NCBI RefSeq assembly: GCF_965363235.1
Contig: NC_134843.1
Span: 94,955,795-95,019,794 of the forward strand
Source of the DNA: Mytilus galloprovincialis
Lineage: Eukaryota; Mollusca; Bivalvia; Mytilida; Mytilidae
Reading direction: 5' to 3'
Length of the DNA: 64,000 bases
In this document: piece by piece, positions 1 to 56,800 of the stretch
Layout: each line of letters begins with the position of its first letter
Numbering within the stretch: the first letter of the stretch is position 1
Notes under the pieces: model-generated
Told to the model about the DNA's origin: nothing
Database searches by the model: none
Seen by the model: only the letters and a program-made list of their open reading frames with translations
Position numbers and translations under genes: made by a program

Positions 1-89
1 CTGTATTTTTTGTATTTTTTTTTTAAATTTTGTTCCTTAATGCTTTTCAACTTCTTACTTTATTTGGCCTTTTTAACCTCTTTGGATTC

Positions 90-136
90 GAGCGTCAATA
101 ATGAGTCTTTTGTAGACAAAACTCGCGTCTGGCGTG
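90..136 (+). ncRNA. Hammerhead ribozyme remnant
   Basis: Same layout as the intact motif at 16729, but the CTGATGA box reads ATAATGA and the GAAA box reads CAAAA. The stem II halves (GTC/GAC) and the cleavage triplet GTC at 127-129 remain. Expected to be inactive. Confidence 0.6.
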
Positions 137-399
137 AATACAAAATTTATTCCTGGTATCTATGATGAGTTTATTTACAACCACTGGGTCGATGCCACTG
201 CTGGTGGAGTTTTAATTTCCCGAGGGTATCACCAGCCCAGTAGTCAGCACTACTGTGCTGACATGAATTATCATTGAGATGGTCATATTTATAAATTAAC
301 TTTTTACAAAACTTTTGAGTTTTTGAAATACTAAGGCTTTTCTTCCTCAGGAATAGATTACCTTAGCTGTATTTGGCAAAACGTTTTAGAATTGGATTC

Positions 400-446
400 G
401 AGTGTCACTGATGAATCTTTTGTAGACGTAACGCGCGTCTGGTGTA
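400..446 (+). ncRNA. Hammerhead ribozyme, near-intact
   Basis: CTGATGA box present, GAAA box changed to GTAA, stem III CGCGCG and the GTC cleavage site kept. It is the second ribozyme of the dimer; the core change should abolish or strongly reduce cleavage. Confidence 0.65.
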
Positions 447-499
447 AATACAAAATTTAATCCTGGTATATATGATGAGTTTATAAGTTGGAAAAGGCA

Positions 500-7614: not shown

Positions 7615-9030
7615 TTACTTTAGCCATTTACTACAACTAACAGCCATTTGATCTCGATATCTGAAACCAACAAAAAGGCTCACACAAAGAAATAAACTAA
7701 CAAGCATCACTACTATAATTGGCCCTGTCGGAACATATGAAACAATTTGTAGTTTGGGCTTGCATCCGATTTCGCTAAGTGATAGCTCAGATATAATTCT
7801 CCCCCGTAGTGAAGGTGGATTGTAGCATTTAAGATCATACAGATATTTATAACGAGTTAAAATTGTTTTCTCTCCATGCATATATCTAAAAGAAGATGCA
7901 GTACGATTTATAATGTATTTTTGTAAAAAGTCTTGAAAATGCTTTACTTCACAATCACACCGAAATGGATTATTTCGAATATTAACTGTTAGTTTATCAC
8001 AAATGCTACTGATCAATTTCGTGAATCCAAATAGTCTGAGAGACGATATGTTATTATAACGTAAATCTACAAATCCCTCGGGGCTATCACCGTAACGGTT
8101 GTGGCTATCGTGACAAATTATAGGATATAAATCGTCTATTAAGTTGTGACTTAAATCTAAATATTTCAAATATTTTGATTCTAGTCTCCATTCCTGAACA
8201 TGTTTTGGTGTTTCTATTATACTGGCGGCACTAAAATTGAGGGTTTCAATATTAGGATACATAGATTTATCAATCCGTCTAGTGAATGGTTGAATTATTG
8301 AAAAACTTTTCTGCAAATGTCGAAGATATTTATAGGTACAGGTGCGTTCACGGAAATTAGGTCGCGCTTGAAAGGTTTCTAATCGTGAACGTTTATTCAT
8401 ATTACCAATCCAACAAGATATGTTGTATTCAATTATCTTTACTGCGTTTACATTACCACACTGAAAAGCTTGAGTCAAATGTTTTGCTCCTTGAAACTGT
8501 TGAAAATCATATTGAGACATATATATCACTGAATTGACCAAAGTGAAATATTTCATACTATCAGGTATTGTATCAATAACATCAGATGTTGCTTCGGATG
8601 TAAATCCATTCAAAACACAGTTTGATATTCGTAATGAATGGAGCAGACGTGCTCTGCCAGGGTATGGAAAGAAAACGCTTCCATTATAGCCACACGTTAT
8701 GTCAACAGAGAATGACATATTTTCTTGTATTCTTGATGTGAATCGACGAAAATCAAGAAAGTTTAAAACAGTGTTGTTGATATTGCAGATTATCTCGATA
8801 TAGTATTTACCAGGTTTGTTTTGTTTTGGTAATTCATTCATATAACAATATTGATCCCAGGGTTGTAAGATAGAAAACGAAATATTGTTCAGTACATGTA
8901 CTGACAGTTGAGGTGATTTCTTTGTTGATTGCATCTTGTTTTTGTTTTCAGTCGTCACATGTTGAAAATATAATATACACAGTAGGATTGTTACATAAAA
9001 ACGGTATGTTTGAAGCAAACAAAATCCCAT
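7615..9030 (-). CDS. TIR-less Toll-like LRR receptor (A1)
   Basis: A single open frame of 471 codons for a type I membrane protein. The start at 9030 (MGFCLLQTYR) is preferred over an upstream Met because the paralogue at 28688-30178 starts at the same place. Residues 1-25 form a signal peptide. The ectodomain has many N-glycosylation sites, a Cys-bearing N-terminal part, LRRs (YLDLSHNLID, VDLRYNNISSL) and an LRRCT (NPFRCDCEVKHF to LSLSEIGC). The membrane span is near residues 437-456, followed by only about 15 residues ending KWLK. No TIR domain is encoded or seen downstream. Compared with A2, the tail is cut by a small change that creates a TAA stop, and GTAAGT spans that point, so splicing to another exon is possible. 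The ectodomain is homologous to the TIR-bearing neighbours. Role inferred: cell-surface recognition, decoy or co-receptor. Confidence 0.85.
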   Translation of the reverse strand: MGFCLLQTYRFYVTILLCILYFQHVTTENKNKMQSTKKSPQLSVHVLNNISFSILQPWDQYCYMNELPKQNKPGKYYIEIICNINNTVLNFLDFRRFTSRIQENMSFSVDITCGYNGSVFFPYPGRARLLHSLRISNCVLNGFTSEATSDVIDTIPDSMKYFTLVNSVIYMSQYDFQQFQGAKHLTQAFQCGNVNAVKIIEYNISCWIGNMNKRSRLETFQARPNFRERTCTYKYLRHLQKSFSIIQPFTRRIDKSMYPNIETLNFSAASIIETPKHVQEWRLESKYLKYLDLSHNLIDDLYPIICHDSHNRYGDSPEGFVDLRYNNISSLRLFGFTKLISSICDKLTVNIRNNPFRCDCEVKHFQDFLQKYIINRTASSFRYMHGEKTILTRYKYLYDLKCYNPPSLRGRIISELSLSEIGCKPKLQIVSYVPTGPIIVVMLVSLFLCVSLFVGFRYRDQMAVSCSKWLK

Positions 9031-10260
9031 AGTGTACTCGCCGCTTGTAAACACTTCTATATCTGTATATATTGTTATGATACACAGAGCAGGAACCGTT
9101 CACGATTTTTTTCGCACTGGAAAGTGAGCAGCAGGAATTAGTTCAACTGTTGAAGGGCTTCTTTACAATGTTATTGCTGTCAAACAAAATAAATTGCAAG
9201 TTAAACAGTTTAAATAAACAAGCATATACAATTTTAATTCTATTCCGTCAAGAAAGATAATTAATTCCTTTTAATTCCTTTTGTATTTCCTTATGTTCAA
9301 CAGAGGTACTGTCTTGTTTCTCGCTTTGTGATAATATCTTGTGGGAAAACCCTTTATGGTTCCATGGTCATGTTGCATATATAAAGATCGTAATTTGCCA
9401 TTGTTGACAAAACATTCTGAAAATGTATATCTGACGTCTGACAGACACCGATAGAGGAATTCCTTCAACAGTTCCTCCTAAAATGTTATTCTTTCAATAT
9501 AAAATGTTATTAACATTACTATGCATTCTCTTACACAATACACTTTAAGCATGTGTAAAACATATACTTGGCCCTCTTGTGCTATAATATCTCCATGGAG
9601 GTTTTGAAAAGTTAAAAGGCATGCATTTATTTCAATCGTGTTTATGGAAGCGTTCAACCATTTCGCTCTTCATAACTTTCTCGTGTATTGTGTGGTGTCA
9701 ACTCTGCGCCGTTTGTCTATGGTCCCGTGTTCCTGGGTATTTTTGCTTCGAGCATCACTGAATAATTAAATTGGAATGATAATCTTATGTGTTCTATTCA
9801 ATGTTATTAGTTGTCATATACTTTGAATCGTCTCGGTCGAATTGCCATAGAGGATTACATTTAAAAGATATATACATGCTTAAAGTATAATATGTAAAAG
9901 CTTCAAAACAATTATCAAATAAACTAGCAACTTAAATAATTATACCTACCTTGCTAAATTCGAAAACTCGCATCGAACTAACTAGCATCTTCATTCCTGC
10001 TATGTTAAAATTCAAATCATCCCTAAAATGTTAGAATAAAGTACACAAACAACTAGTTTAATTATACATATACTGGTACAATTCTTGGAATCATCCGTAT
10101 CAAAATCCGGGATAAATATCGTGTTATAAATCATGTTATATAATAGTTCTTTTATCAAGGTCTAGTGCATCCTTCTTTTGTAGAATTACTAAATTGTCAT
10201 TATTATAAGGCAAATTAAGGCCGCTATTAAAGCGATTAAAAGAGAGGCGAAAGATACCAG
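9031..10260 (-). promoter_or_regulatory. Conserved upstream region of A1
   Basis: Patches along this stretch match the region upstream of A2 (30179-31260): GTATTTCCTTATGTTCA near 9283 and 30417, AATCACTGAATTATT-like wording near 9750 and 30833, and TCAAAATCCGGGA near 10098 and 31169. Homology over more than 1 kb outside the coding region shows that promoter and gene were duplicated together. No TATA box or named factor site is assigned. Confidence 0.55.
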
Positions 10261-13953: not shown

Positions 13954-15813
13954 ATGAATAATGCTATCACAATTTCAAATATGTATCCGTTGCTTGGACT
14001 TGGATTTGCACTACACATCTGTTCCGTTACAACAGAAAGGAGTATTGAGTTGGTGGCAACAGAAGAACGGACAAATAGTTCCATAGATACATTTACCAAT
14101 TTTTCTTATGTTATGAATGAGTTTGAAAGCCTTGAGAACTGGAGTAGGCTATGTAATATATCACAAACTGGTCACATTGACTTTGATATTGTGTGTATCG
14201 TTGAGGGTAACTCCAGTATAAAGTTATCAGAATTTAGAAATTTTACGAATCATGTATCGTCACACATCCGATTTGACTTATCCGTTATTTGTAAAGATGG
14301 TATCATTCACTTTCCTTGGCCGTTCAGAGCAGACAAACTACATAGAATCTTCATCAAAGACTGTAGAATTAAAGATTACAGAACTGATTTCAAGAATTCG
14401 TTAATAAACAGCATTCCCGACACAATAAAACATTTACAAATGGACAACGTCACTATTATTCTAAGGATTGGAGAATTATACGACTCATTGTCAAAAGCTA
14501 ACTCGCCTATAACAAGAGCTGCAGAATGTGGACCTGAAAATGCTTTCTCTATTATTCTAAGGGGAACAACGGCGAACATTGAAGATATGCACAACTATTT
14601 TATGTTTGACCTCGAAACTGCAATCGAGCAATATAATCATTATTTTAACATTCAGAAGAGAACCTGTTTGTACAACAACCTTGAAGTTTATGAAATTAGT
14701 GGAATGAAAGATTTAGAAAAAAATGTGGTTAATAAGATTATTCATACAGACGTTGCAGAAAATCTTAAAATATTGAATTTTTCTGGTAACGGGATATTTG
14801 ACACTATCTATAAATTACAAGGCTGGCGACTACGATTCCCAGTGATGGAATATATAGACTTTTCCAATAATAACATTAAAGTTATTCCAATGATACGAGA
14901 TTACGGAATGACTGTGAAAAAGACAAAATCAGTAGGATTAATAGATATTAGGCGTAATAATATTACTTCATTAACAAAAGGTATGATAGACTCGTTCTCA
15001 ACTCACAAATTTGTTAAAGTCGACATCAGTGAAAATCCTTTCTTATGTGATTGTGGAATAATTGAAGTAATGGAATATTTATCTGCAAAGACTATGCCAA
15101 CAGCTTATGATTACCTCAGAACTCTAAAGTGTGGAAATCCCTCAAAAGTCCGTGGACGTCAGATGATAACTCTGTTGTCGACAGAACTAAACTGTAATCA
15201 GGAAACGGTCATCAATTTTCCAGTCGTCGTTATGGGCATCATAACAATTACATTGTTCGTCATAACTTTTTTGACAATATATTTCAGAAATAAGATCAAA
15301 GTAATTTTGTTTACTCGACTCAATATAAACTTACCATGTGAATTCAGAAATGCCACACACGAAGAGAAAGAATATGATGCATTTATCGCCTACAGCGAGA
15401 AAGATGTTGACTGGGTTATACATACAGCTTTACCAAAGTTGGAGTCAGAAGACGCTGGGAGAGCATGTCGACTCTGTCTTCATCATAGAGATTTTATAGT
15501 TGGTAATACTATAGCGGATAACATATTTAACAGTGTTGAAAACAGCTTTCACACCATCTTACTTATATCCAATGATTTCTTGAAGAGTGAATGGTGTATG
15601 ATGGAGTTCAGAACGGCTTTGAGGAAAAGTTTACAGGATGAAGATCGACATTTAATAATTGTGTTGAAGGGTAATATAACTGTAGATAATATTGATCCTG
15701 ATTTGAAAAATTGTCTCAATTCTCAAACCTATCTTAAGATTGGAGATGTGTTATTTTGGGATAAACTGAAATATGGGATATCATTTAGACACAAGAAAAG
15801 TCAAAACAATTAA
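13954..15813 (+). CDS. Short Toll-like receptor with TIR domain (B1)
   Basis: An intact intronless frame of 619 codons for a Toll-like receptor. A hydrophobic signal lies near residues 11-28. The ectodomain of about 390 residues has many NxS/T sites, a Cys-rich N-terminal half, and LRRs at about 271-365 (LKILNFSGNGIF, MEYIDFSNNNIKVIP, LIDIRRNNITSL). An LRRCT follows (NPFLCDCGII, ending ELNC near 414). The membrane span is at about 419-444 and the TIR domain at about 473-612. TIR box 1 is YDAFIAYS (474-481), box 2 LCLHHRDFIVG (507-517) and box 3 FW (601-602). In box 2 the usual Pro before Gly is Val. The ectodomain is much shorter than in typical TLRs. Family role: ligand sensing and signalling through TIR adaptors; the ligand is unknown. 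Its homologues are psi-B2 and B3. Confidence 0.93.
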   Translation: MNNAITISNMYPLLGLGFALHICSVTTERSIELVATEERTNSSIDTFTNFSYVMNEFESLENWSRLCNISQTGHIDFDIVCIVEGNSSIKLSEFRNFTNHVSSHIRFDLSVICKDGIIHFPWPFRADKLHRIFIKDCRIKDYRTDFKNSLINSIPDTIKHLQMDNVTIILRIGELYDSLSKANSPITRAAECGPENAFSIILRGTTANIEDMHNYFMFDLETAIEQYNHYFNIQKRTCLYNNLEVYEISGMKDLEKNVVNKIIHTDVAENLKILNFSGNGIFDTIYKLQGWRLRFPVMEYIDFSNNNIKVIPMIRDYGMTVKKTKSVGLIDIRRNNITSLTKGMIDSFSTHKFVKVDISENPFLCDCGIIEVMEYLSAKTMPTAYDYLRTLKCGNPSKVRGRQMITLLSTELNCNQETVINFPVVVMGIITITLFVITFLTIYFRNKIKVILFTRLNINLPCEFRNATHEEKEYDAFIAYSEKDVDWVIHTALPKLESEDAGRACRLCLHHRDFIVGNTIADNIFNSVENSFHTILLISNDFLKSEWCMMEFRTALRKSLQDEDRHLIIVLKGNITVDNIDPDLKNCLNSQTYLKIGDVLFWDKLKYGISFRHKKSQNN

Positions 15814-16204: not shown

Positions 16205-16335
16205 GTAATATTTTTTCTGTCAATTCGAAATAACATAAAAAATGTGATGCACACTGTTAAATAACCCGCTACGCGCGTTATTCAGTGTGCACCAAATTTT
16301 TTATGTTATGTCTTCATAGACAGAAAAAATATTAC
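16205..16335. repeat. Long imperfect palindrome
   Basis: The outer arms GTAATATTTTTTCTGTC and GACAGAAAAAATATTAC are exact reverse complements. Inner arms around TAACATAAAAAATGTG and GCACACTG/CAGTGTGC also pair, leaving a core near AATAACCCGC...GCGTTATT. It can form a stem-loop or cruciform of about 130 bases and abuts the retrozyme repeat at 16336. Confidence 0.8.
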
Positions 16336-16385
16336 TCAATGCTCTTCAACTTTGTATTTGTTTGGTTTTGCAACTATTTTGATCT

Positions 16386-16432
16386 GATCGTCACTGATGA
16401 GTCTTATGTAGACGAAACGCACGTCTGGCGTA
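16386..16432 (+). ncRNA. Hammerhead ribozyme, near-intact
   Basis: Has CTGATGA, a GTCT/AGAC stem II, GAAA, and the GTC cleavage site. Stem III reads CGCACG instead of CGCGCG, and stem I is weakened by GATCGTCA. Confidence 0.8.
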
Positions 16433-16728
16433 TAAAATTATAATCCTGGTACTTTTGATAACTATTTACACCACTGGGTCGATGCCACTGCTGGTGGACG
16501 TTTCGTCCCCGAGGGTATCACCAGCCCAGTAGTCAGCATTTCGGTGTTGACATGAATATCAATTATATGGTCATTTTTATACAAAATTTTTGAATTTTTC
16601 GAAAAACTAAGGATTTTCTTACCCCAGGAGTAGATTACCGTAGCCGTATTTGGCACAACTTTTGGGAATTTTGGGTCCTCAATGCTCTTCAACTTTGTAT
16701 TTGTTTGGTTTTTTAACTATTTTGATCT

Positions 16729-16775
16729 GAGCGTCACTGATGAGTCTTATGTAGACGAAACGCGCGTCTGGCGTA
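16729..16775 (+). ncRNA. Hammerhead ribozyme, intact, type I
   Basis: All conserved parts are readable. Stem I pairs GCGTCA with TGGCGT. The CTGATGA box is followed by stem II GTCT/AGAC with a 5-base loop, then GAAA, a minimal stem III CGCGCG, and GTC as the cleavage site. Such very short stem III hammerheads are known from metazoan retroelements and usually act as dimers. Cleavage would fall just after GTC. Confidence 0.9.
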
Positions 16776-16829
16776 TAAAATTATAATCCTGGTACTTTTG
16801 ATAACTATTTACATTCATTCCTTAAAAAA

Positions 16830-18699: not shown

Positions 18700-19385
18700 A
18701 CAGTTGAAAATTTATCAAAATCACACACTCTTGCTGGATTTGCTTTCATAATTCTAACAAATCAGTTTTACATCGTCATTGCATTGAGACAGGCATTTTC
18801 TTATGTGAAAAATGATGGATTGAACCCGGTTCTTCAAGCTAGCTAACCGTCTTGTATGACTGTAAATGTTTGAAGCTTATACAGTTTGGCATGAGATCCC
18901 AACACCAGGTTAAAATATACTCCGTATATTATTTTGACATATCAAGATGTATTTTTCCTATCTTTTTATGTTTTTTTTTGGTCACCAAATATATTTGAAA
19001 GTATTATCTGTCGCACTCACAAAAAACACAGTTTAAAGGCCAAACAAAATACAGAGTTGGAGAGTATTGAAGACAGAATGTTTAAAAAAAATCCTAAATC
19101 TTGTTAAAGGTTATATCAGCGTAAAACTTAGTCATTCTTATTATCATGATATTTTTTTATCAGTTCTTCTACACATTTTAACCACATCATGAAAGTTCAT
19201 GTCAGCACTGAACCGTTAAATTCTTGCCTGGAACAGGAACAAAAATTGCTATTTTTCCTTGGATGTCATTTTTACCAGATTTCAGTAGTAACTATGGTTG
19301 TTGATAAGTGCATTCCGTATCTTTGAAATATACAATTCAACAGGACAAACAAAATTTAATTTCCCGTTTTTGTTTTTAACTATTT
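18700..19385. other. No gene seen
   Basis: AT-rich sequence without a supported frame or a repeat I recognise. Confidence 0.4.
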
Positions 19386-21149: not shown

Positions 21150-22930
21150 ATGAAAAACTATCTCACGTTTCTTGATATTAATACTTTGCTTGAACTTGGA
21201 CTTGCATTAGATAACTTTACAGTTAAAAAAGAAAAGAATAATGATTTGGTAGCAACACAACCTCAGATGATTGATTCAGTGGATACAATTGCCCATTTTA
21301 CTTACGTTACGAATGAGTTTGAAAGCCTTGAGAACTGGAGTAGCCAATGTAATATATCACAAACTGGTCATACAGACTTTATCATTGTGTGTATCATTAA
21401 ACGTAATTCCATTATAAAATTATCTGAATTAAGAAATTTTACCAATCAAGTATCATCAAATATCAGATTTGACTTATCCGTCACTTGTGAAGACGGTATC
21501 ATCCACTTTCCCTGGCCGTTCAGAACAGACAATATAAATAAAATTGATATTAAAGGCTGCAAAATTAAGGATTACAAATCCGATTACAAGAATCCATTGA
21601 TAAAAAGAATTCCCGACACAATAAAATATCTATATATGGACAACGTTACAATTATTCAAAGGCTTGTAGAAAAATATGACTCAATACCAAAAGCTAACTC
21701 GTCTATAGCAAGAGCTGCAGAATGCGGACCGGAAAATGCTTTTTCCATTATCAGGAGAAGAATAAAGATTATTTTTGAAGACATGCACAAGTATAACTTA
21801 TTTAATTTCAGCACTGCACTAGAGCAGTATAACCATTTTTTTAACACCCAGAAGAGAATCTGTTTGTACAATAACCTTGAGGTTTTTGAAATAAGTGGAA
21901 TGCAGGATTTGAAAAAAAATTATGTTAATAAGATTCTTCATGCAGATGTTGCAAAAAATCTTAAAATTTTGAATTTTTCTGGTAATGGTATATTTGACTC
22001 TTTTTATAAACTACAAGGATGGCGACTACGATTCCCAGAAATGGACTATATAGACTTTTCCGATAATAACATAACAGTCCTCCCAATAATACGAGATAAC
22101 GGAATAAAATCGAAAAGGACAAAATTAGTAGTTATAATAGATTTACGGCGTAAGAAAATCAATTCATTAACAAAAGGTATGATAGACTAGTTCTCAACAC
22201 ACCAATTTGTTAAAGTCGATATCACTGAAAATCCGTTCTTTTGTGTCTGTGGAATAATTGAAGTAATGGAATATTTATCTGCAAAGACTATGCCAAAAGC
22301 TTATGATTACCTAGAGTCGCTTGAGTGTGAAAATCCCTCAAACGTCCGTGGATGACAGATGATAAGTCTGTCTCCAACAGAACTAAACTGTAACAAGGAA
22401 ACTGTCATCCATTTTCCAGTCGTCGTTATGGATATCATAACAATTACATTGTTCGTCAATATCAACTGTCCATGTAAATTCAGAAATGACATTAACGTAG
22501 AGAAAGACTATGATGCATTTTTGCCTACAGCGGGAAAGATGTTGATTGGGTTATACATACAGCTTTACCGAAGTTTGAGTCAGAGGACGCTGGGAAAGCA
22601 TACAGACTCTGTCTTCATCATAGAGATTTTATAGTTGGTAATACCATAGCTGATAATATATACAACAGTGTTGAAAACAGCTATCACACCATCCTACTTA
22701 TAACCAATGAGTTCTTGAAGAGTAAATGGTGCATGATGGAATTCCGAACGGCTTTGAGGAAAAGTTTACGCGATAAAGGTCGTCATTTGATAATTGTGTT
22801 GAAGGGTAATATAACTGTAGATAATATTGATCCTGATTTGAAAAGTTGTCTCAATTCTCAAACCTATCTTAAAATTGGAGATGTGTTATTTTGGGATAGA
22901 CTGAAATATGTAATATCATTACGACAATGA
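21150..22930 (+). pseudogene. Toll-like receptor pseudogene (psi-B2)
   Basis: Collinear with B1 and B3 from start to stop. The first 346 codons are open (signal, N-terminal region, first LRRs). A TAG at 22188-22190 replaces a Ser codon in the LRR region. A TGA at 22353-22355 replaces an Arg codon in the LRRCT. About 60 bases covering half of the membrane span and the juxtamembrane stretch are missing near 22450. One base is missing in TIR box 1 near 22519. The C-terminal TIR part (22715-22930) is again open and very close to B3. Loss of function appears recent. A truncated secreted ectodomain could still be made from the first 346 codons; nothing shows that it is. Confidence 0.9.
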
Positions 22931-28109: not shown

Positions 28110-28205
28110 TCATATTTGATCTAAGCGTCACCGATGAGTCTTATGTAGACGAAACGCGCGTCTGGCGTATTAAATGATAAGCCTGGTACTTTTGATAACT
28201 ATCAT
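28110..28205 (+). repeat. Solo retrozyme-like repeat piece
   Basis: Only the block around the ribozyme and the following CCTGGTACTTTTGATAACTA is present; the central region is missing. Like a single end left behind. Confidence 0.65.
28123..28169 (+). ncRNA. Hammerhead ribozyme, one core change
   Basis: CTGATGA reads CCGATGA. Stem II GTCT/AGAC, GAAA, CGCGCG and GTC are kept, and stem I GCGTCA/TGGCGT is kept. Confidence 0.75.
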
Positions 28206-28687: not shown

Positions 28688-30178
28688 TTAAAAAGTCATA
28701 TCAGTATAGTTAATTGCATTCACATTGTCATTCTTAGAAACCGTGAAATTATAGCAGGGTCGACAGTACGAACTAAGCCACTTACTACAACTTACAGCAA
28801 TCTGTTCTCTATATCTGATACCAACAAACAGACACACGCATAGAAAAAAGCTAACAAGCATCACTACTATAATTGGACCTGATGGAACATATGTTACTGT
28901 TTGTAATTTAGGCTTGCACCCGATTTCACTAAGTGATAATTTAGAAATTATTCTCCCTCGCAGTGAAGGTGGATTGTAGCATTTAAGATCATGCAAATAT
29001 TTATAACGAGAGATATTATTTTCTCTCACATCATAATAAGATGATGCCACTCGATTGTCTATATATTGGGAAATGTCTTGAAAGTACTTTACACCACAAT
29101 CACACATAAACGGATTATTTCGTATATCAACCGTTAGTTTATGACAAATATCACGTAACCATGTTCTTATTTCGTAAAATGTGAGTGATGATATGTTATT
29201 ATAACGTAAATCTACAAATCCTTGAGGGCTATCACCTTCGTATTTATCATGACATATTATAGGGAAAACATTTTCTATGAAGTTGTGACTAAGATCTAAA
29301 TATTTCAAATCCTTTGCTCCTAGCCTCCAGTCCTGTAAATGTTTTGGTGTTTCAATCATATTAGATGCACTAAAGTTAAGCATTTCAATGTTCGGATACA
29401 TAGATTTATCAATCTGCCGAGTAAACGGTTGTATTATTGAAAAACTTTTATGGAGGTGTCGAAGATATTTGTAGGTGCAGGTGCGATCACGGAAATTAGG
29501 TCGCGCTTGAAAGGTTTCTAATCTTGAACGTTTATTCATATTACCAATCCAACAAGATATATTGTTTTCAATTATTTTTACAGCGTTTACATTACCACAC
29601 TGAAAAGCTTGAGTCAAATGTTTTGCCTTTTGAAACTGTTGAAAATCATTTTGAGTCATATATATCACTGAATTGACCAAAGTGAAATATTTCATACGAT
29701 CAGGTATTGTATCAATATCATCAGATGTTGCTTCGGATGTAAATCCATTCAAAACACAGTTTGATATTCGTAATGAATGGAGGAGACGTGCTCGGCCCGG
29801 GTATGGAAAGAAAACGCGTCCAGTCTGTCCACACGTTATGTCAACGGAAAATAACATATCTGCTTTAATTTTGGATGTGAAACGTCGAAAATCGAGAAAG
29901 TTTAAAACATTGTTGTTGATATTGCAAATAATCTCGATATAGTATTCACCAGATTTGTTTTGTTTTTGTAACTCATTTACCATGTTTACCTTACAAAACT
30001 GTTGCCATGGTTGTAAGATAGAAAACGTATTATTATCCGTTACATACCCTGACAGTTGAGATAATTTCTTTGCTGATTGAATCTTGTTTTTGTTTTCAGT
30101 CGTCACATGATTAGCAAATAATAAAAAGAGTAGGAGATCAACACAGAATCTGAATGATTGATATGAACAAAACCCCAT
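28688..30178 (-). CDS. TIR-less Toll-like LRR receptor (A2)
   Basis: An intact intronless frame of 496 codons, the paralogue of A1. The start MGFCSYQSFR is followed by a signal peptide (to about residue 25) and the conserved VTTENKNK. The ectodomain carries LRRs (LKYLDLSHNFI, FVDLRYNNISSLT) and an LRRCT (NPFMCDCGVKYF to EIGC). The membrane span PIIVVMLVSFFLCVCLFVGI is followed by a 42-residue tail with SSYCRPCYNF and a C-terminal INYTDMTF. YTDM fits a YxxPhi sorting signal and is near an ITIM (I-x-Y-x-x-M); this is inference. There is no TIR domain. It is divergent to the TIR receptor B3 about 7 kb away, as A1 is to B1. Two open paralogues without TIR argue for a selected protein, not a broken TLR. 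Confidence 0.88.
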   Translation of the reverse strand: MGFCSYQSFRFCVDLLLFLLFANHVTTENKNKIQSAKKLSQLSGYVTDNNTFSILQPWQQFCKVNMVNELQKQNKSGEYYIEIICNINNNVLNFLDFRRFTSKIKADMLFSVDITCGQTGRVFFPYPGRARLLHSLRISNCVLNGFTSEATSDDIDTIPDRMKYFTLVNSVIYMTQNDFQQFQKAKHLTQAFQCGNVNAVKIIENNISCWIGNMNKRSRLETFQARPNFRDRTCTYKYLRHLHKSFSIIQPFTRQIDKSMYPNIEMLNFSASNMIETPKHLQDWRLGAKDLKYLDLSHNFIENVFPIICHDKYEGDSPQGFVDLRYNNISSLTFYEIRTWLRDICHKLTVDIRNNPFMCDCGVKYFQDISQYIDNRVASSYYDVRENNISRYKYLHDLKCYNPPSLRGRIISKLSLSEIGCKPKLQTVTYVPSGPIIVVMLVSFFLCVCLFVGIRYREQIAVSCSKWLSSYCRPCYNFTVSKNDNVNAINYTDMTF

Positions 30179-36039: not shown

Positions 36040-36195
36040 AACTCATCATAAGTACCAGGATTAAAATTTTATTTTTACGCGAGACGCGCGTCTCGTCTAC
36101 ATAAGACTCATCAGTGACGCTCGAATAAAATAATGTTTAAAAAGCCAAATAATAGGAATCATTGGTCTCAATGCTTTTCAAATTCGTACTTTAAT
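36040..36195 (-). repeat. Retrozyme-like repeat piece
   Basis: Minus-strand copy of the ribozyme block with flank; the central region is absent. Confidence 0.6.
36076..36122 (-). ncRNA. Hammerhead ribozyme, core changed
   Basis: CTGATGA and stem II are kept, but GAAA reads GAGA. Stem III CGCGCG and GTC are kept. Likely inactive. Confidence 0.65.
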
Positions 36196-36556: not shown

Positions 36557-36913
36557 ATAAATTCACCATAGATACCAGTTTAAAATTTTGTACTAACGCC
36601 AGACGCGCGTTTCGTCTACAAAAGACTCATCAGTGACGCTCGAATCCAAAAATGTTTAAAAGGCCAAATAAAGTACGAAGTTGAAGAGCATTGAGGACCG
36701 AAATTCCTAAAGGTTTTGACAAATACAGCTAAGGTAATATATTCCTGAGGTAGAAAAGCCTTAGTATTTCAAAAATTTAAAAGTTTTGGAAACAGTTAAT
36801 TTATAAAAATGACCATATCAATGATAATTCTTGTCAGCACAGAAGTGCTGACTACTGGGCTGGTGATACATTCGATGAATTAAAACTCCACCAGCAGTGG
36901 CATCGACCCAGTG
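36557..36913 (-). repeat. Retrozyme-like repeat, one unit
   Basis: A full single unit on the minus strand: ribozyme block, CAATGCTCTTCAACTTCG-type flank, and the central block with CTGGGTCGATGCCACTGCTG. It lies directly before the upstream region of receptor gene B3. Confidence 0.75.
36596..36642 (-). ncRNA. Hammerhead ribozyme, intact
   Basis: GCGTCA/TGGCGT stem I, CTGATGA, GTCT/AGAC stem II, GAAA, CGCGCG and GTC are all present on the minus strand. Confidence 0.88.
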
Positions 36914-37386
36914 CCATATGGCACAAAATCAAAAACATGCTTTAAAACTGTTTGCAATCAATGTAGTTTTTTTCCAATTTTGAAAATAAAGTATCCGCGA
37001 AGCTTTTAATGCAGACTGGTAATGGTTTTGATTTTGTTTTTGTTTTTGCAGATGTTAATTAAATGATACCTATTTATCATAATTAATTCAGAAAAAAAAC
37101 GTAGTTTGCGGAAATCCTTTAAAAATCTGTCTGTTTATATATTTTACTAAATGATAGTACACAGTTCCGTAAGCATTATTATTTATCATTACTTCAAGTT
37201 TGTTCACAACATTATTATTATCCTTATGTATGTCTTCTGAAATGAAGAAAACAAACGAAATAGACTAGGAGCATTCTATTTGCTGAAAGAAAATAAAGTC
37301 GTTCTGCATTTTTTGTTCAGTTATTTTTTTAAGGACCTAGATACATCCTGTTCCCCATGAAATATATTTCAAGGAAACGGTTCAGA

Positions 37387-39249
37387 ATGAGATACTATAT
37401 CACAATTCGTTATATTTTTCCTTTACTTGGACTTGGACTTGGACTTAATATCGTTACCGTTACAAACGAAAGGAATAATGATTTGGTTGTAAAACAACAG
37501 CAGATGAATAATTCAATAGATACATTTACCAATTTTTCTAATGTGATAAATGAGTTTCAAAGTCTTGAGAACTGGAGTCGGCTATGTAATATATCACAAA
37601 CTGGACACACTTACTTTGACATTGTGTGTATTATTCAAGTTGATTCCAGTATCAAGTTATCAGAATTTAGAAATTTTACAGATAAAGTATCATCAAATAT
37701 CAGATTTGACTTATCCGTCACTTGTGAAGATGGTGTAATATACTTTCCCTGGCCGTTCAGAGCCGACAAACTAAATAAAATTTACATCAAAGACTGTCGA
37801 ATTAAAGATTACAGGACCGATTACAAGAATCAGTTGATAAACAGCATTCCCGACACAATTAAATATCTTCAAATGGACAACGTCACTATAAGTCAAAGGG
37901 TTGAAGAATTATATGACTCAATACCAAAAGCTAACTCGCCTATAACAAGAGCTGCAGAATGTGGACCGGAAAATGCTTTTTCAATTATTCATAGGGGGAC
38001 AATTGTGACATTTGAAGATTTATACAACCATCATTTGTTTGATTTCAATTCTGCAGTCTATCAATATAACCATTATTTTAACACGCAGAAGAGAGCCTGT
38101 TTGTACAACAACCTTGAGGTTTATGAAATGAGTGGGACAAAAAAAAGTTTAAGAAAGAATGACATCAATAAGATAGCTTATACCGACGTTGCAGAAAATC
38201 TCAAAATATTGAATTTTTCTAATAATGGGATGTTTGACTCTTTTTATAAATTACAAGGCTGGCAACGACGCTTCCCAGTGATGGAATATATAGACTTTTC
38301 CAATAATAACATAAAATTCCTTCCTATGATACAAGATTACAGTTTAGCTGTGAAAAAAAACAAATCAGTCGTAACAATAGATTTACGGCGTAATAATATA
38401 ACTTCACTAACAAAACGTATGATAGACTCATTCTCAACTCACGAATTTGTCAAAGTCGACATCAGTGAAAATCCGTTCATATGTGATTGTGGAATACTTG
38501 AAGTAATTGCATATCTATCTTCAAAGACTATGCCAAAAGTTTATGATTACCTTGGGTCGCTAGAGTGTTCAAAACCCTCAAACGTCCGTGGACGTAAGCT
38601 GATAAATATGTCCGCTACAGATCTTAACTGTAACAAGGAGACAGTTGTAAACTTTCAAGTAGTTGTTTTGAGCATCATAACAATAACATTGGTCATCATA
38701 ACTTTATTGACAATCTATTTCAGGAATATGATCAAAGTTATTTTGTTTACTCGACTCAATATAAACTGTCCATGTGAATTCAGAAATGTCACAACCGATG
38801 AAAAAGAATATGATGCATTTATTGCCTACAGCGAGAAAGATGTTGATTGGGTTATACATACAGCTTTACCTAAGTTGGAATCAGAGGACGCTGGGAGAGC
38901 ATGCAGACTCTGTCTTCATCATAGAGATTTTATAGTTGGTAATACCATAGCTGATAATATATACAACAGTGTTGAAAACAGCTATCACACCATCCTACTT
39001 ATAACCAATGAGTTCTTGAAGAGTGAATGGTGCATGATGGAATTCCGAACAGCTTTGAGGAAAAACTTACAGGATAAAGGTCGTCATTTGATAATTGTGT
39101 TGAAGGGAAATATAACTTTGGATAATATTGATCCTGATTTGAAAAGTTGTCTCAATTCTCAAACATATCTTAAAATGGGAGATGTTTTATTTTGGGATAA
39201 ACTGAAATATGCCATATCATTTAGACATAACACTAAACAAAATGATTAA
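37387..39249 (+). CDS. Short Toll-like receptor with TIR domain (B3)
   Basis: An intact intronless frame, 620 codons from the Met at 37387. That start is chosen over the one 10 codons earlier because B1 and psi-B2 start in the same context (GGTTCAGAATG). Architecture as B1: signal with PLLGLGLGLNIV, Cys-containing N-terminal half, LRRs (LKILNFSNNGMF, MEYIDFSNNNIKFLP, TIDLRRNNITSL), LRRCT (NPFICDCGIL), membrane span, TIR domain. TIR boxes are YDAFIAYSEKD, LCLHHRDFIVGNTI and FWDKLKYAI. The TIR domain is nearly identical to that of B1 while the ectodomain differs more, which suggests a conserved signalling output and a varying recognition surface. Ligand unknown. Divergent partner of A2. Confidence 0.93.
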   Translation: MRYYITIRYIFPLLGLGLGLNIVTVTNERNNDLVVKQQQMNNSIDTFTNFSNVINEFQSLENWSRLCNISQTGHTYFDIVCIIQVDSSIKLSEFRNFTDKVSSNIRFDLSVTCEDGVIYFPWPFRADKLNKIYIKDCRIKDYRTDYKNQLINSIPDTIKYLQMDNVTISQRVEELYDSIPKANSPITRAAECGPENAFSIIHRGTIVTFEDLYNHHLFDFNSAVYQYNHYFNTQKRACLYNNLEVYEMSGTKKSLRKNDINKIAYTDVAENLKILNFSNNGMFDSFYKLQGWQRRFPVMEYIDFSNNNIKFLPMIQDYSLAVKKNKSVVTIDLRRNNITSLTKRMIDSFSTHEFVKVDISENPFICDCGILEVIAYLSSKTMPKVYDYLGSLECSKPSNVRGRKLINMSATDLNCNKETVVNFQVVVLSIITITLVIITLLTIYFRNMIKVILFTRLNINCPCEFRNVTTDEKEYDAFIAYSEKDVDWVIHTALPKLESEDAGRACRLCLHHRDFIVGNTIADNIYNSVENSYHTILLITNEFLKSEWCMMEFRTALRKNLQDKGRHLIIVLKGNITLDNIDPDLKSCLNSQTYLKMGDVLFWDKLKYAISFRHNTKQND

Positions 39250-40739: not shown

Positions 40740-41060
40740 CTCAATATCGTTTTTAATTCGAGTGTCACTGCTGAGTCTTTTGTAGACTAAACCTGTGTCT
40801 GGCGTACACAATTTTGACTTTTTTTTTTTATATATATTGAGTTCATAATTGATACACTCATTTCCTGAAAATTTACAGGGCATATAATGTTAAAATTGGT
40901 AGGAACATTAGTGTTTCTTTTATTATGGGTTTCAATGCTTCTTAACTTAGTTATTGATTTGACCTTCAATTGTTTTTTAATTCATGGACAACTAATGTGT
41001 CTCGTGTAGATGAAACATTAATTTGGCGTACTAGATAATACTTCTGGTATTATTTATCGT
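40740..41060 (+). repeat. Two old retrozyme-like pieces
   Basis: Two degraded ribozyme blocks about 224 bases apart, at 40760-40806 and 40984-41030. They are the oldest-looking copies in the window. Confidence 0.5.
40760..40806 (+). ncRNA. Hammerhead ribozyme remnant
   Basis: CTGATGA reads CTGCTGA, GAAA reads TAAA and stem III is lost (CCTGTG). Stem II and TGGCGT remain. Confidence 0.5.
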
Positions 41061-43169: not shown

Positions 43170-43392
43170 ATTTAACACCTCCCTGCTGTTTTATCATCGC
43201 TATGACTGGTGTTCTAAAATTTCCCGTGTTTGGCACAATTTTTTGAAAATTTGGATCCTCAATGCTCTTCATCTTTGTACTTGTTTGGCCCTTTAACTGT
43301 TTTGATATGAGCGTCACTGATGAGTCTTATGTAGACGAAACGCGCGTCTGGCGTATTAAATTATAATCCTGGTACCTTTGATAACTATTTCA
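43170..43392 (+). repeat. Solo retrozyme-like repeat
   Basis: Flank TTTGGCACAATTTTTTG, CAATGCTCTTCATCTTTG, then an intact ribozyme block and TGGTACCTTTGATAACTATT. Confidence 0.7.
43309..43355 (+). ncRNA. Hammerhead ribozyme, intact
   Basis: GCGTCA, CTGATGA, GTCT/AGAC, GAAA, CGCGCG, GTC and TGGCGT are all present; identical in the core to the copy at 16729. Confidence 0.9.
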
Positions 43393-50803: not shown

Positions 50804-53800
50804 TCTTTATTTAAAGAGGGTAAACTCAGTTAGTTACAATAAACTAATCTTCCCTGAGGCCCTCGCATACAAATTACAATACAATCAAAACAGATATTTA
50901 CACATAGTTAATTTACACATAGTTAATTTACACTCATGTAGTTCAATGTATTGTTATTAACATAAGATATAATGCTGTTTAAGATGTATACATGTAGTCA
51001 AAAAATCAAATGAAAATAAAAAATAAAAAATATACAAATACATTGTAGCAAACATTTCTTATCAGGGTTGTGTTAGGTACTTCTTGATACTTTGCTTAAA
51101 AGTAAAAGTGTTTTGAGCTTTACGCATTGTGTGTGGTAGTCCATTCCATAATACTGATCCAGAATAAGCAAAGGATTTCTTAAATAGTTCAGCTTTTGGC
51201 TTAGGAACTATCAGATTACCTTGAGTGACGCCTCTTAAGGAGTAAGGATTATTATCTGATTTCAGTTTAAACTTTTGAACTAGGTACATTGGTGCTTCCA
51301 TATGCATACATTTATATAGAAGTAAATATTTGTGGTATTTTATTCTATTGTCAACTGTCATCCACCCAAGTTTTTTAGATAAGGGGGCTGAGGGGGATAA
51401 AGGATCTGCATCTAGAATTAATCTTGCTGCCCTTTTTTGGAGTTTTAAATTCTTGTTATCCCTTCATTTTTACATTCACCCCAAATAATACAGCAGTAGT
51501 CAATTAAGGGAAGAATATACCCATTGTAATATGTTTTCCTTGCATTTATATCTAAAAATTTCTTTATTTTAGAAAGAAGGTATATTCTGGATGATATATT
51601 AGCACAAACTTGGTCAATTTGATTTTTCCAGTTAAGTGTGTTGTCTATTTTAACACCTAATAATTTTTCACATGAAGAATTTTGTAATACTTTTGAATTT
51701 ATTATCAAGTTTGGTTGACAGGTCTGAATTGATAGTTTCTGTTTTGTTCCAGTAACCAAACATTTTGTTTTATTTGCATTAATGAACATGTTGTTCATTT
51801 TACACCACTCTTCAACCCGGTATAAATCTTCTTGAACATCATCATGTATGTTTTCTATGTTTTTCCCAGATTTATGAAGAGTGGTGTCATCAGCATATAG
51901 GTCTGTTTCACAATTTTCAATGCATAAGGGAAGGTCATTTATAAATAGTACAAACAATAGGGGACCAAGTATAGAACCTTGGGGGACACCAAATTTTACA
52001 TGTTGTTGTTCAGAATAAACATTACAAATGTTTACCTGCTGTTTTCTGTTATTGAGGTATGACTTGAAAAAACTAACAGAAGCCTCACTAAATCCATAAA
52101 TTTTAAGCTTTAAACAAAGAATATCATGATCTACCAAATCAAAAGCTTTTTTAAAATCTAATAAAATTGCTAGATTCAAATTACCATCATTCATTTCTTG
52201 CAACCATTTGTCAATGATATTGATAAGTGCAGTTTGACAAGAATGTTGCGGCCTGAAACCAGATTGTGTAGGGTGTAAAAGTTTAAGTTTTGATAAATAT
52301 TTGTACATTTTATTAGAAACATGTTTTTCTATTAATTTTGATAAAGTTGGAAGAACAGATATAGGTCTGTAATTTGTTGCTAGAAGCTTGTCACCATCCT
52401 TGAAAACTGGTGTTACCTTAGCATTCTTCAGTAATGAAGGATATATACCAGTATCTATCATTCTGTTAAATATATATGTGAGAGGTGATGCAATAAAAGG
52501 GGCACTTAATCTTAGGATTTTTGGTCCAATATTATCCATACCAGATGCTTTATTTATATCAAGTTTTGCTAATTCATTAAATAGCTCATTCATGTTCACT
52601 GGTGGTATAGAAAATTTTTCATGTTTATGTAATTTATTTTTAACAAATTTACTTAGATTACTAAAATCTGCTTTGTTAACAGGTGTATAATTTCCTTGTT
52701 CTCTTAGTTTTTCAGCACAGGAAGTGAAAAAGTTATTAAAAGTATCAGCTATACATTTTTTACTTTTAGTTGTATTGTTATCTTCTGTGGCTAACTCATA
52801 TGGTGTATTTTTAACTTTTGGGTTCACACTGTGAAGACATTTCCATAAGGTTTTAGGGTCATTCGAGTCTTTTACCATATTTTTATAATAATTCTTTTTT
52901 GAGTTATCTACAATGTGTTTAGTTTTATTTCTCCAAAATTTATACTCACTCCATAATGCCCGCGTCACACTGTCCCGATTTCAATATACGATGGACACCC
53001 GAATGCGAAAATTGTAAGTTCGTACGAAGTTGGTCCCGATCTCGTTAAAATACCAAAAAGTGACCGAAGCAAGTACGATGAATAACGAAGTCTATACGAT
53101 GGTGCCGAAATTATATACGATAGCAAAAGATGGACATACGAAGGTTAACCGAAGACGGGTATTTAAGCTTCATATCTCAGCCGAAGCCTACACGATGGAT
53201 CACGAAGGCTACACGATGGATTACGAAGGCTACACGATGGATTACGATGATGGCGCGATGGCCATACGATGTCTAAAAGATACGAACAGAATTTCGACAA
53301 CATATCGTTTCTGTACAAGTCTACCATGCATGGCGGGAAATCGATCTTTTTGTCTAATTCTTATAAAACTTAGTTTATTATCCCCTCGCCTACTACATGT
53401 AATTTGTGTGTTGATAAAATTGTTATGGACACTCTAGAACCAAAATGCTCAAAACTTGGTATGGTGTTACTCGTTAAGAATATCTTAAGCGCTATTGACT
53501 TTAAAGTTCAAAGGTCAAGGTCACAGTTGCAGTTGTAATACAAGGCAATATCACCCTTGTTGACACTCTAAAACCAATATGCTTCAAAAGATTTTAACCA
53601 CATTTGGTATATTGTTCCTCCTTGTAATGATCTGACATTTTTTACGTTCAAGGCCAAAGGTCAAGGTCATGCAGATGGACTTGTTTTTTCTCCTTGAAAT
53701 AGCATAATACACAGGAAATTGGTTGCTCATATTTTTACCTGTTGGTTCTATGAAGACAATATTAAAGGTATTTCCAGTTACTGAATGTTTTGGTTGATTT

Positions 53801-56800
53801 CTAAAAAAATAGTTAATGTATCAAATATGCATATTCAATTTACCATTTTCTGCATGTGTCATATACAAATATAGTGTCCATATTTGTCCCCAATATGTTA
53901 CATACGAGGGGATGACATGCTCGGCATTGCCTTGTTTGAACTGTAAAAAGTGTGCACTAGTCTGAATAATCACCCATAATTATGCCCAAGTTTACTGATC
54001 TATCTTAAAGGTAAGGTAATGGGTTCGTTGATCCCTTTTATTCAAAAAGAGCTCTTTCCAGGAGAATATCATAATAATATATAGACAAAAGGAAGGATGT
54101 GGGGAAAGCAACAAATGCGGTAAAATATGACATATAGAAAACAAAATGGTTATGGAGTAAACATTCGTGTGACAACAACTCCGACGATACATAAAAAATC
54201 AGAATAATGAATAAAAAGTTGGTTTCCCTATATACGTGTACCTGCAGTGTTGGTGTACGAGGCGCGTTTATGATTTTCATTATGTTACTTGATATGAACA
54301 ATTGACAAAAAATAATATTTTACTTGTAAAAGTAAATCCTGAGCCTGTAATAGCTGCTCTTCTTGTTCCATTTGAATTAATAGAAACAACGCTGTCGCCT
54401 TTCTTGTTTTCATAGAATCATATGATATGAGCTCCATGTTTTGTGAACGTCTTTCTTAACTGTCGTATTAGACTGACCAGTGCATATCGCGCATGGCACT
54501 TTAAATGTATTTTAGCGCGAAAATTAACTTACATTAAGCTGGATTTATTGCCGTCGTAGTTCCATCTTGTCGCCTTCGTACTTTTATTCGATGGCAACAC
54601 GACGGGATTACGAGGTCTTCACGAAGTCGTGTTGCCATCGTAAGACTTTCAGGTATCTTCGTGATTCATTCGTGTAGACATCGTAATGTCAAAACTGCCC
54701 GATGGAAACGATGGAAACACGAATGCAATACGATGTGCAAAGATGCATTCCCGGTGACATTACGATGGTGAGGATGGTGATACGAACTCAATACGAACCC
54801 TCAACATCGGACGCACCTTCGGGGATTTTTTAACATGTTAAAAAATTTAGAACCCTTCCCGAAGTTGTCCCCGAAGGCTAAAAAAAGTGGCCGATGGTTC
54901 TACGATGGTTAAAGATGGCACTACGAATAGCCCGATCTGGATACGATCAGTCCCGATTTTGAAAATTTCCATTATCGTGTTGCCATCGGAGTAAAAATCG
55001 GGACAGTGTGACGCGGGCATAAACCAAGTGCATTATATTTATCTCTCATATTCCTAGCATAAATGATTTCACTGTTATACCATTCAGGCTGCCTGTCTCT
55101 TTTAACTCTCTTTTTAACAACAGGAGCATGTTTATCTAATTAAAAGCCTTGTTCAACATATCATAAAACAATTTTAGACAGTCAGAGGGGTTTTCTTCAA
55201 ATTCAATTTCATGAAAAGGTGTCGATTGCAGATCTAATAAAAAATTGTTTTGGTTGAAATTTTTAAAATTTCTATATGTAATTGTACTGTGTGTATTCTT
55301 TTTGCCTATGTTGACTTCTTTCCTTGTTAAACAGATAGGATAATGGTCACTAATTGCATATCTACACACATGTGATTCCTCTACCATATTTGGATTATTG
55401 ACATAAATATGATCAATCAGTGTACTAGTATCCTTTGTTACCCTTGTGGCTTCTTCAATCAGTTGTTGAAAATTATATGATTCTAAAACATTTAGCCATT
55501 TTTGAGGAGGTTTGTTTGGTACTTTAAAATTAAAATTAAAATCACCCATAATTGTTATATCTGAATTCATGGTCATTGCCATTCTTATTTCTTTTTCAAA
55601 ATCATCAACCCAATCTATCAGTGATTTTGGTGGCCTATAAACAAAACATAATAAAAAGATTTTTTGTAATCTGGTTTAATTTCAAACCACATTGTTTCCC
55701 TACCCCCTATTTCTATGTTGTTTTTTCTTAAAAATTTAATAGTTTCAGAAAAGTAAACAATCAGACCACCCCCACCTTGGGATGTTCTGTCCTTTCTTTC
55801 AAATACATAACCAGGTACTTGTAATTCATTATCAGTTGTGTGTTTTGTTAAAAATGTTTCACACAATCCTAATACATCAGGTTGGTTATCAGAAAACATA
55901 AGGTTATGTTTAATTTCTTCATATTAACTTTCAATCCTATTAACATTATGAGAACAAATCCTGATACCTTTTGATTTACTAAAACCATAAGAATTAAAAA
56001 TCTTATCATTAGCTGTCAGTGCATGGTTTTCTAAATTAATTATATAATATATACAAACACTAATTGCTAAAATAAACACAGAGACATAAGATAATTTCAC
56101 ATCAATTATTAAATTGACCTGAGGGAGAGGTAATAATAAATTATCTACATTAGACTCATTATCAAACATTACACAGTTTGTATCATGCTGTTTAATACCA
56201 AGTAATATATCCTGTCCAGATGTCTGAGATTCAGTGTTAAAATTATCAGAATTAATCAACCCATCATTAGTACTATAAAGTTTGACAGTAGACATTTCCT
56301 GGGTTGTGTCAAGTGAGAAATTACTCTCATTCTTGTCTTTAATTGTTTGTCTAGTGTTTCTAGTTTTCTTTATCTCAGAAATCTGAAGCCCTTGTGACAA
56401 AGAAAATAATTTACACATGCATGGGAATAAATTGCATTCAGAACATAATATTGTCAGTACATCAAATTTGTTTGAAACAGATGTTAAATTGGCATTTCCT
56501 TCTTTGCCATTTTTTCAAGCAGTACAAGATTTTAGTTTGTGTCCATACCTATTGCACTTGAAGCATTTAATTTTCATATTAAATCTACAGAAGGATGTTT
56601 TATGGTTAAGTTCACCACAGTTCTCACAGACAACATGTGAATTGATTATTCCAATTATGTTATCTATTGTTTTGATGTATCTTGATGTTCCTCTTGAATT
56701 GAAATGAATACCATCATGAACATAAAAATGATTGTTTTGATTGAAGCTGTCACGCATATACATTTCATATTGTCTTATAAAAACTAGTCCAAGGTGTTGA

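Follow-up and report, generated by a model that had tools for sequence, protein, structure and literature searches.

Genomic copies of a mussel hammerhead retrozyme mostly end at a fixed point past the ribozyme cut, consistent with reverse transcription from an internal site on circular RNA

The window analyzed here, a 64-kb stretch (64,000 bp; C6:94955795-95019794) of the 1.385-Gb Mytilus galloprovincialis genome, contains copies and remnants of a repeat that carries hammerhead ribozymes, together with a LINE-like retroelement (Table 1). A cluster of five receptor-like genes or gene fragments that look alike by eye lies at 7615-9054 (minus strand), 13954-15813 (plus), 21150-22190 (plus), 28688-30178 (minus), and 37357-39249 (plus). 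Two of the five frames include a TIR domain (Pfam PF01582, Toll-like), and the other three had no Pfam match. One of these genes ends ~500 bp before the start of the repeat copy at 16337, and a palindromic element recognized by eye (window positions ~16217 to 16328; arms TTCTGTC... and ...GACAGAA) directly precedes that copy. Positions within the repeat unit are given as circle positions, where position 1 is the first base after the predicted ribozyme cut.

Table 1. Retrozyme copies, their parts, and the LINE-like element in the 64-kb window
Feature	Coordinates	Strand	Remarks
Decayed partial dimer, second retrozyme family, period 310	26-484	+	Ends ...GATGAGTTTAT at ~484
Degenerate hammerheads within the 26-484 dimer	near 90-134 and 400-444	+	
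Retrozyme insertion, ~1.4 units, period 343, two hammerheads	16337-16812	+	
Hammerhead 1 of the 343-period dimer	16388-16431	+	26.8 bits; stems I and III contain mismatches; predicted cut after 16425
Internal TATT of dimer unit 1 (circle 38-41)	16463-16466	+	Usual genomic end point; putative start of reverse transcription (RT)
GC-rich conserved two-hairpin RNA module (circle 48-126)	16473-16551	+	Directly beyond the putative start site
Hammerhead 2 of the 343-period dimer, complete core	16731-16774	+	33.0 bits; passes structural test; predicted cut after 16768
Terminal TATT, 3' end of the 16337-16812 insertion	16806-16809	+	Further TACA match perhaps due to chance
Short retrozyme-like fragment, 45 bp	19030-19074	-	82% identity; without ribozyme
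5'-truncated retrozyme copy	28115-28202	+	Hammerhead 28125-28168, 29.8 bits, CCGATGA core; ends GATAACTAT
5'-truncated copy, second-family tail	36045-36152	-	Hammerhead 36120-36077, 24.3 bits; GAGA replaces GAAA
Near-complete single unit, second family	36573-36913	-	Complete hammerhead 36639-36596, 32.5 bits; decayed tail to ~36558
Decayed hammerhead remnant	40751-40813	+	
Very decayed hammerhead remnant	40978-41054	+	Recognized by eye only
5'-truncated retrozyme copy	43224-43390	+	Complete hammerhead 43311-43354, 33.0 bits; ends GATAACTATT at 43389
LINE-like retroelement	51445-57489	-	Reverse transcriptase; weak endonuclease match; one frame containing a GDSL-lipase-like domain and a zinc knuckle

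A preliminary description of the window listed ten readable hammerhead motifs, and all ten are legible in the sequence. The Rfam covariance-model search that it had proposed, run over the whole window at an E value of ≤1, matched six of them to Hammerhead_1 (RF00163), with scores of 24.3 to 33.0 bits that are all under the gathering score of 34 bits; the motifs near 90, 400, 40760, and 40984 had no Rfam match at this threshold and were read from the sequence, the badly decayed one at 40984 by eye alone. For the motifs at 16729, 36596 (minus strand), and 43309, the Rfam alignments agree with the complete core, stems I and II, and GTC cleavage site previously ascribed to them. A structural test (CTGANGA, stem II, GAA, the ends of stem III, the cut site, and 5 of 6 stem I pairs) was passed by four window copies, with core starts at 16394, 16737, and 43317 on the plus strand and 36633 on the minus strand, and found no full hammerhead in 40 first-order Markov windows of equal size. 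The term "intact" carries the caveat that stem III is a palindrome, ACGCGCGU, whose full pairing leaves no room for a loop. Free-energy folds of isolated copies differed from the hammerhead fold in all four cases tested. Loop II is variable (TTATGTA and TTTTGTA), and the type of tail is not strictly matched by it. The periods of 310 and 343 bp described for two dimeric copies were both recovered; the copies themselves span only ~1.3 to 1.4 units rather than two full ones, each being composed of two ribozymes and one internal part.

An exact 35-base ribozyme core occurs 8,066 times in the genome (3,892 + 4,174), with no occurrence of the backward control. In a genome-wide Rfam search, 29 of 37 listed places were above the gathering score (scoring covered 74 of the 224,653 initial candidates). 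A natural unit taken from one genomic locus (L002:1590-1945) is 356 bp long with a GC content of 39%. Its longest stop-free stretch, when the unit is tripled, is 61 codons, and it has no protein-coding frame; no long terminal repeat (LTR), tRNA primer site, or purine tract was noticed on reading the 356-bp unit. The unit and its arrays fall within the short tandem repeats (150 to 450 bp, dimers to multimers) that characterize retrozymes, the GC content lies below the 45 to 50% limit for metazoan non-LTR retrozymes, and the ribozymes are of type I, as in that class, with the window copies scoring just below the Rfam cutoff. The retrozyme reading of the preliminary description is thus supported by the type I hammerheads, the noncoding ~350-bp tandem units, the low GC content, and the thousands of copies. 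These repeats are a large family of nonautonomous metazoan (non-LTR) retrozymes, a kind that is already known.

In the literature, the family is not anonymous. The available text of the 2020 study of M. galloprovincialis by Cervera and de la Peña (PMC7229834) already contains both the element and this interpretation: it reports two families of repeats, 350 to 390 bp long, with ~5000 type I hammerheads between them, self-cleavage in vitro at ~0.1 per minute, and circular retrozyme RNAs on Northern blots of several tissues. The window repeats resemble those elements in the hammerhead type, the ~350- to 390-bp unit, the two families of similar sequence, the thousands of copies, the low GC content, the tandem arrangement, and the lack of coding capacity, a likeness of description rather than a letter-by-letter match of sequence. 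The suggestion that the window repeats give rise to circular RNAs agrees with the data in that text. Plant LTR retrozymes, as far as they are covered in the text of PMC7761336, are likewise nonautonomous, with a self-cleaving RNA and a circular intermediate, but differ in having LTRs, a tRNA primer site, a purine tract, and 4-bp duplications, which were not seen here; their hammerhead is of type III (PMC7229834, available text), whereas that of the mussel repeats is of type I.

Two kinds of tail were found in the window (GATAACTAT and GATGAGTTTAT), and the copies ending near 484, 16809, 28202, 36045, and 43389 all halt at TAT(T). The same end point was evaluated at 62 loci on C1 (up to 17.4 Mb), picked by the exact ribozyme core from 100 listed places, a selection that makes the sample blind to copies shorter than ~80 bp. 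BLAST yielded 82 spans at these loci, of which the 62 with at least 85% identity and at least 80 bp were kept. Sixty of the 62 end at circle positions 34 to 47, the exceptions being L015 (position 20) and L035 (position 107); among the 20 short or diverged spans that were dropped, 7 end at positions 30 to 50 and 13 outside that range. For base-by-base analysis, 59 of the 60 elements were used, L016 being cut by the edge of its locus. Identity to the circle (58 of the 59 elements) was 1.00, 0.95, 0.88, and 0.81 at positions 38 to 41, fell to 0.48, 0.47, and 0.24 at positions 42, 43, and 44, and was 0.60 again at position 45. Genome-wide, 3,783 of 14,717 tails (26%) extend 14 nt beyond the site, versus 4,043 of 7,544 (54%) that continue over a comparison step of equal length inside the unit, a difference that puts the share of such genomic tails stopping at the site at about one-half.

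Twelve further tails, a nonrandom set selected for having no exact core beside them (tails 558668, 559028, 1921507, and 1933000 were left out), gave a similar picture: nine end at the site (eight by BLAST and L086 by eye) and three run into the next unit. In two of the nine, the match to the circle is no longer than 29 bp. L086 was considered as a copy beginning at the ribozyme cut and was rejected, because the element extends further upstream in decayed form. The 5' ends, by contrast with the 3' ends, are scattered around the whole circle, and copy lengths range from 83 to 1,199 bp, with 22 of the 59 elements longer than one unit. They are denser at circle positions 260 to 320 (21/59), perhaps because of a pause site upstream of the ribozyme, with a contribution from the selection for whole ribozymes. 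Most genomic copies examined thus end at one fixed point, ~41 bases past the ribozyme cut, an observation that appears to be new.

The sequence on the other side of the cut bears on the template. Of the sequences of one variant that reach circle position 2 genome-wide, 5,581 of 6,065 (92%) read through the cut, about what mutation alone leaves at the measured rate of decay. An enzyme starting at position 41 of a cut linear monomer would run off the template at position 1, and the 92% read-through argues that such a monomer was not copied. Eleven arrays, each containing two or more full units, were compared internally, and in nine of them the variants common to all units outnumber the varying sites (for example, 19 versus 4 in L013 and 15 versus 0 in L063); the arrays that run against a single-template pattern are L029 (14 shared versus 50 varying) and L006 (7 versus 14). 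Units within an array are 97.5 to 100% identical in five of six arrays tested (91 to 93% in L029), and the mean identity between arrays is 93.6%. A circular template appears to be the best explanation of the read-through and array homogeneity taken together; a homogeneous array transcribed into an uncut multimer would look the same and is a possible alternative template. As observations on the arrays themselves, three of similar size and with a period of ~357 bp lie within 0.7 Mb (C1:28984481-28989166, 29329473-29333438, and 29639657-29642555), as if a block had been duplicated, and ribozyme spacings of 225 bp (L039) and 193 bp (L077) mark shorter units, possibly deletion variants.

Circle positions 48 to 126 are predicted to fold into two hairpins. 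A 111-nt piece with this module had a z score of -3.54 (none of 200 shuffled sequences was as stable), versus an unremarkable -1.43 for the fold of the whole unit, and the GC content is 60% at positions 46 to 126 versus 33% in the rest of the unit. In an alignment of 35 sequences (L002 and 34 of the 53 distinct sequences recovered), 95.2% of the cells were paired, versus 92.7% in shuffled alignments. Double-change cells numbered 25, versus a shuffled mean of 4.7 and with none of 500 shuffles as high, a type of count that kinship among sequences inflates; swaps in the second hairpin include U-A to C-G and C-G to U-A. The covariation score was 0.113, versus at most 0.052 when pairing partners were slid, which lowered pairing to 36 to 44%. 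Other measures discriminated less: a slide of -2 gave 6 pairs with double changes, equal to the real structure, and the count of further pair types was matched by 24 of 500 shuffles. These comparisons point to a conserved, covarying two-hairpin module that adjoins the putative RT start on its 3' side.

Insertion sites were evaluated for target-site duplications, which in the available text on metazoan retrozymes are described as longer than 4 bp "when present" (PMC7229834). Words of at least 8 bp shared between flanks within 30 bp were found in 4 of 59 elements, versus 4.0% of shuffled pairs. One of them, an apparent 25-bp duplication at L072, was rejected as a local tandem repeat; without L072, the count is 3 of 58, versus 2.3 expected. 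The mean shared flank word is then 5.64, versus 5.30 by shuffling (16 of 2,000 permutations as high), and 5.16 versus 4.91 for the flanks alone (87 of 2,000). Paralogous uninterrupted sites were available for six insertions among the sequences compared, with L035, L072, and self-matches left aside. For L024, an empty-site paralog in L080 matches at 97.7% without a gap (the differences are 2 and 11 for two less closely related copies); for L044, one in the window matches at 92.6% with one gap; for L019, ten matches at 69 to 79% mostly lack one base; and for L061, the paralogs (77 to 80%) indicate one extra base. Judged by these sites, none of the four insertions has a duplication. Weaker paralogs indicate that 5 to 10 bases were lost at the L042 site (72 to 77%) and that the L068 site has 10 extra bases (74 to 78%). 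The insertions thus generally lack long target-site duplications; short ones may be present. No strong target motif was found in the retrozyme 3' flanks, in which only an A at position 45 is enriched (35/58), and no (AT)n target was seen in the 59 flanks.

Reverse transcription of this nonautonomous retrozyme from a fixed internal site on circular RNA is, in our view, likely. The type I hammerhead would cleave its own transcript, perhaps as one of a pair given the weak, palindromic stem III, and ligation would close the ~356-nt monomer into a circle, a form known in the mussel. An enzyme from another retroelement would start RT at a fixed internal site ~41 nt past the cut (GATAACTAT/T), adjoining the conserved two-hairpin module, possibly with nicked target DNA as the primer. 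From there, RT would proceed back across the joined cut site of a template that would be truly circular and not merely uncut, over a distance that could be as short as a few dozen nucleotides or as long as several turns, and integration of the cDNA would duplicate little or none of the target site. A fixed start on a circle followed by a run of variable length would give the copies the same 3' end, spread their 5' ends around the unit, and produce tandem arrays of like units.

The enzyme could come from a Penelope-like element. In the available text on PAc, such an element of the anole (Frangieh 2024, PMC11167929), RT starts inside the RNA rather than at its 3' end, 111 to 118 nt into the frame, with the hammerhead cut at 26; the protein needs RNA further 3' of the start; and hammerhead mutants left insertion in vitro unchanged. 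The retrozyme ends suggest an internal RT start past the hammerhead, as in Penelope-like elements, and the same order as in PAc, i.e., hammerhead, internal start, and conserved or needed RNA beyond. The distance from cut to start is ~85 to 92 nt in PAc (computed from the published numbers), versus 41 nt in the retrozyme; PAc encodes its own protein, whereas the retrozyme is noncoding; and two start sites (the "tail") are described for PAc, versus a single one seen in the retrozyme (PMC11167929, same text). Penelope-like elements can mobilize unrelated sequence between their repeats, and one Penelope-like insertion without a duplication has been described, according to the text available from PMC3846280.

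Two local Penelope-like families, L079 and L080, were compared with the retrozyme. L080 resembles it in having a sharp internal 3' end (34 of the 45 matches listed end at query position 366), which suggested L080 as a partner; its copies, however, insert into (AT)n (20 of 20 read), which argues against this. Its sequence showed no convincing likeness to the retrozyme (best E value, 0.03), and a ribozyme-like motif in L080 was recognized by eye only, without an Rfam match. L079 had only a weak match to the retrozyme (best E value, 0.66), and most 3' matches of its family break off within or close to an AT repeat. The L079 family matches often form close pairs in opposite orientation. Neither of the two families examined shares its 3' end or target with the retrozyme, and no Penelope or LINE carrying the retrozyme tail was found among L079, L080, and the window LINE. 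Copying of retrozymes by a Penelope-type enzyme is suggested by the analogy with PAc and is quite possible, though we would not presume it.

Mobilization in the manner of a SINE is an alternative in which a LINE enzyme recognizes the ribozyme plus the 41-nt tail and carries out target-primed RT on a circle or on a transcript ending near the tail. Copies that share a fixed 3' end and are truncated at the 5' end are what LINEs and SINEs produce, both retrozyme families of the window have a similar tail, the window contains a LINE, and short duplications could underlie the slight surplus of short words common to both flanks. Clear target-site duplications are nevertheless lacking, the existence of 356-bp arrays implies that transcripts extend past the tail, the conserved module sits 3' of the start site and hence outside the inserted tail, and BLAST of the element at 16337-16812 found no match in the LINE at 51445-57489; we regard this explanation as somewhat unlikely. 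It is improbable, in turn, that cDNA primed at a fixed internal site was made elsewhere and captured at double-strand breaks without an element endonuclease. The missing duplications at L024, L044, L019, and L061, the small loss or gain at L042 and L068, and the lack of a strong target motif would all fit such capture, but the enriched A at position 45 is a possible target motif and a specific RNA primer would be required. A tRNA primer site would begin with TGG, and the sequence after the end point, TACACCAC, does not.

Expansion at the DNA level, by unequal exchange or through extrachromosomal DNA circles that enlarge arrays with the ribozyme as a passenger, could account for large arrays, such as the matches ~357 bp apart at the first of the three C1 arrays listed above, and for the likeness of units within most arrays tested. 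The many short, scattered single insertions with one end fixed and the other variable are not a product of exchange and make a satellite origin very improbable, although unequal exchange may have enlarged some arrays after insertion.

No description of animal retrozymes with a fixed internal start, with copies reading through the cut, or with a covarying module was found in the open-access literature searched, and the fixed 3' end, the absence of clear duplications, and the two-hairpin module do not appear in the available text of the 2020 mussel study (PMC7229834). Together, the fixed end, the read-through, and the module suggest how, and on what template, retrozymes return to DNA, and with the end located 41 nt past the cut they make the question of copying testable with purified enzymes. 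That metazoan retrozymes in general are circles copied by a Penelope-type reverse transcriptase from position 41, guided by the module and over multiple turns, is a tentative proposal. A start at position 41 on a cut linear monomer would yield only 41 nt of cDNA, which suggests why a circle made by the ribozyme helps. If the proposal of a Penelope-type enzyme copying circles is true, the role of the ribozyme would be to make the circle that gives a long tandem cDNA rather than a 41-nt runoff product.
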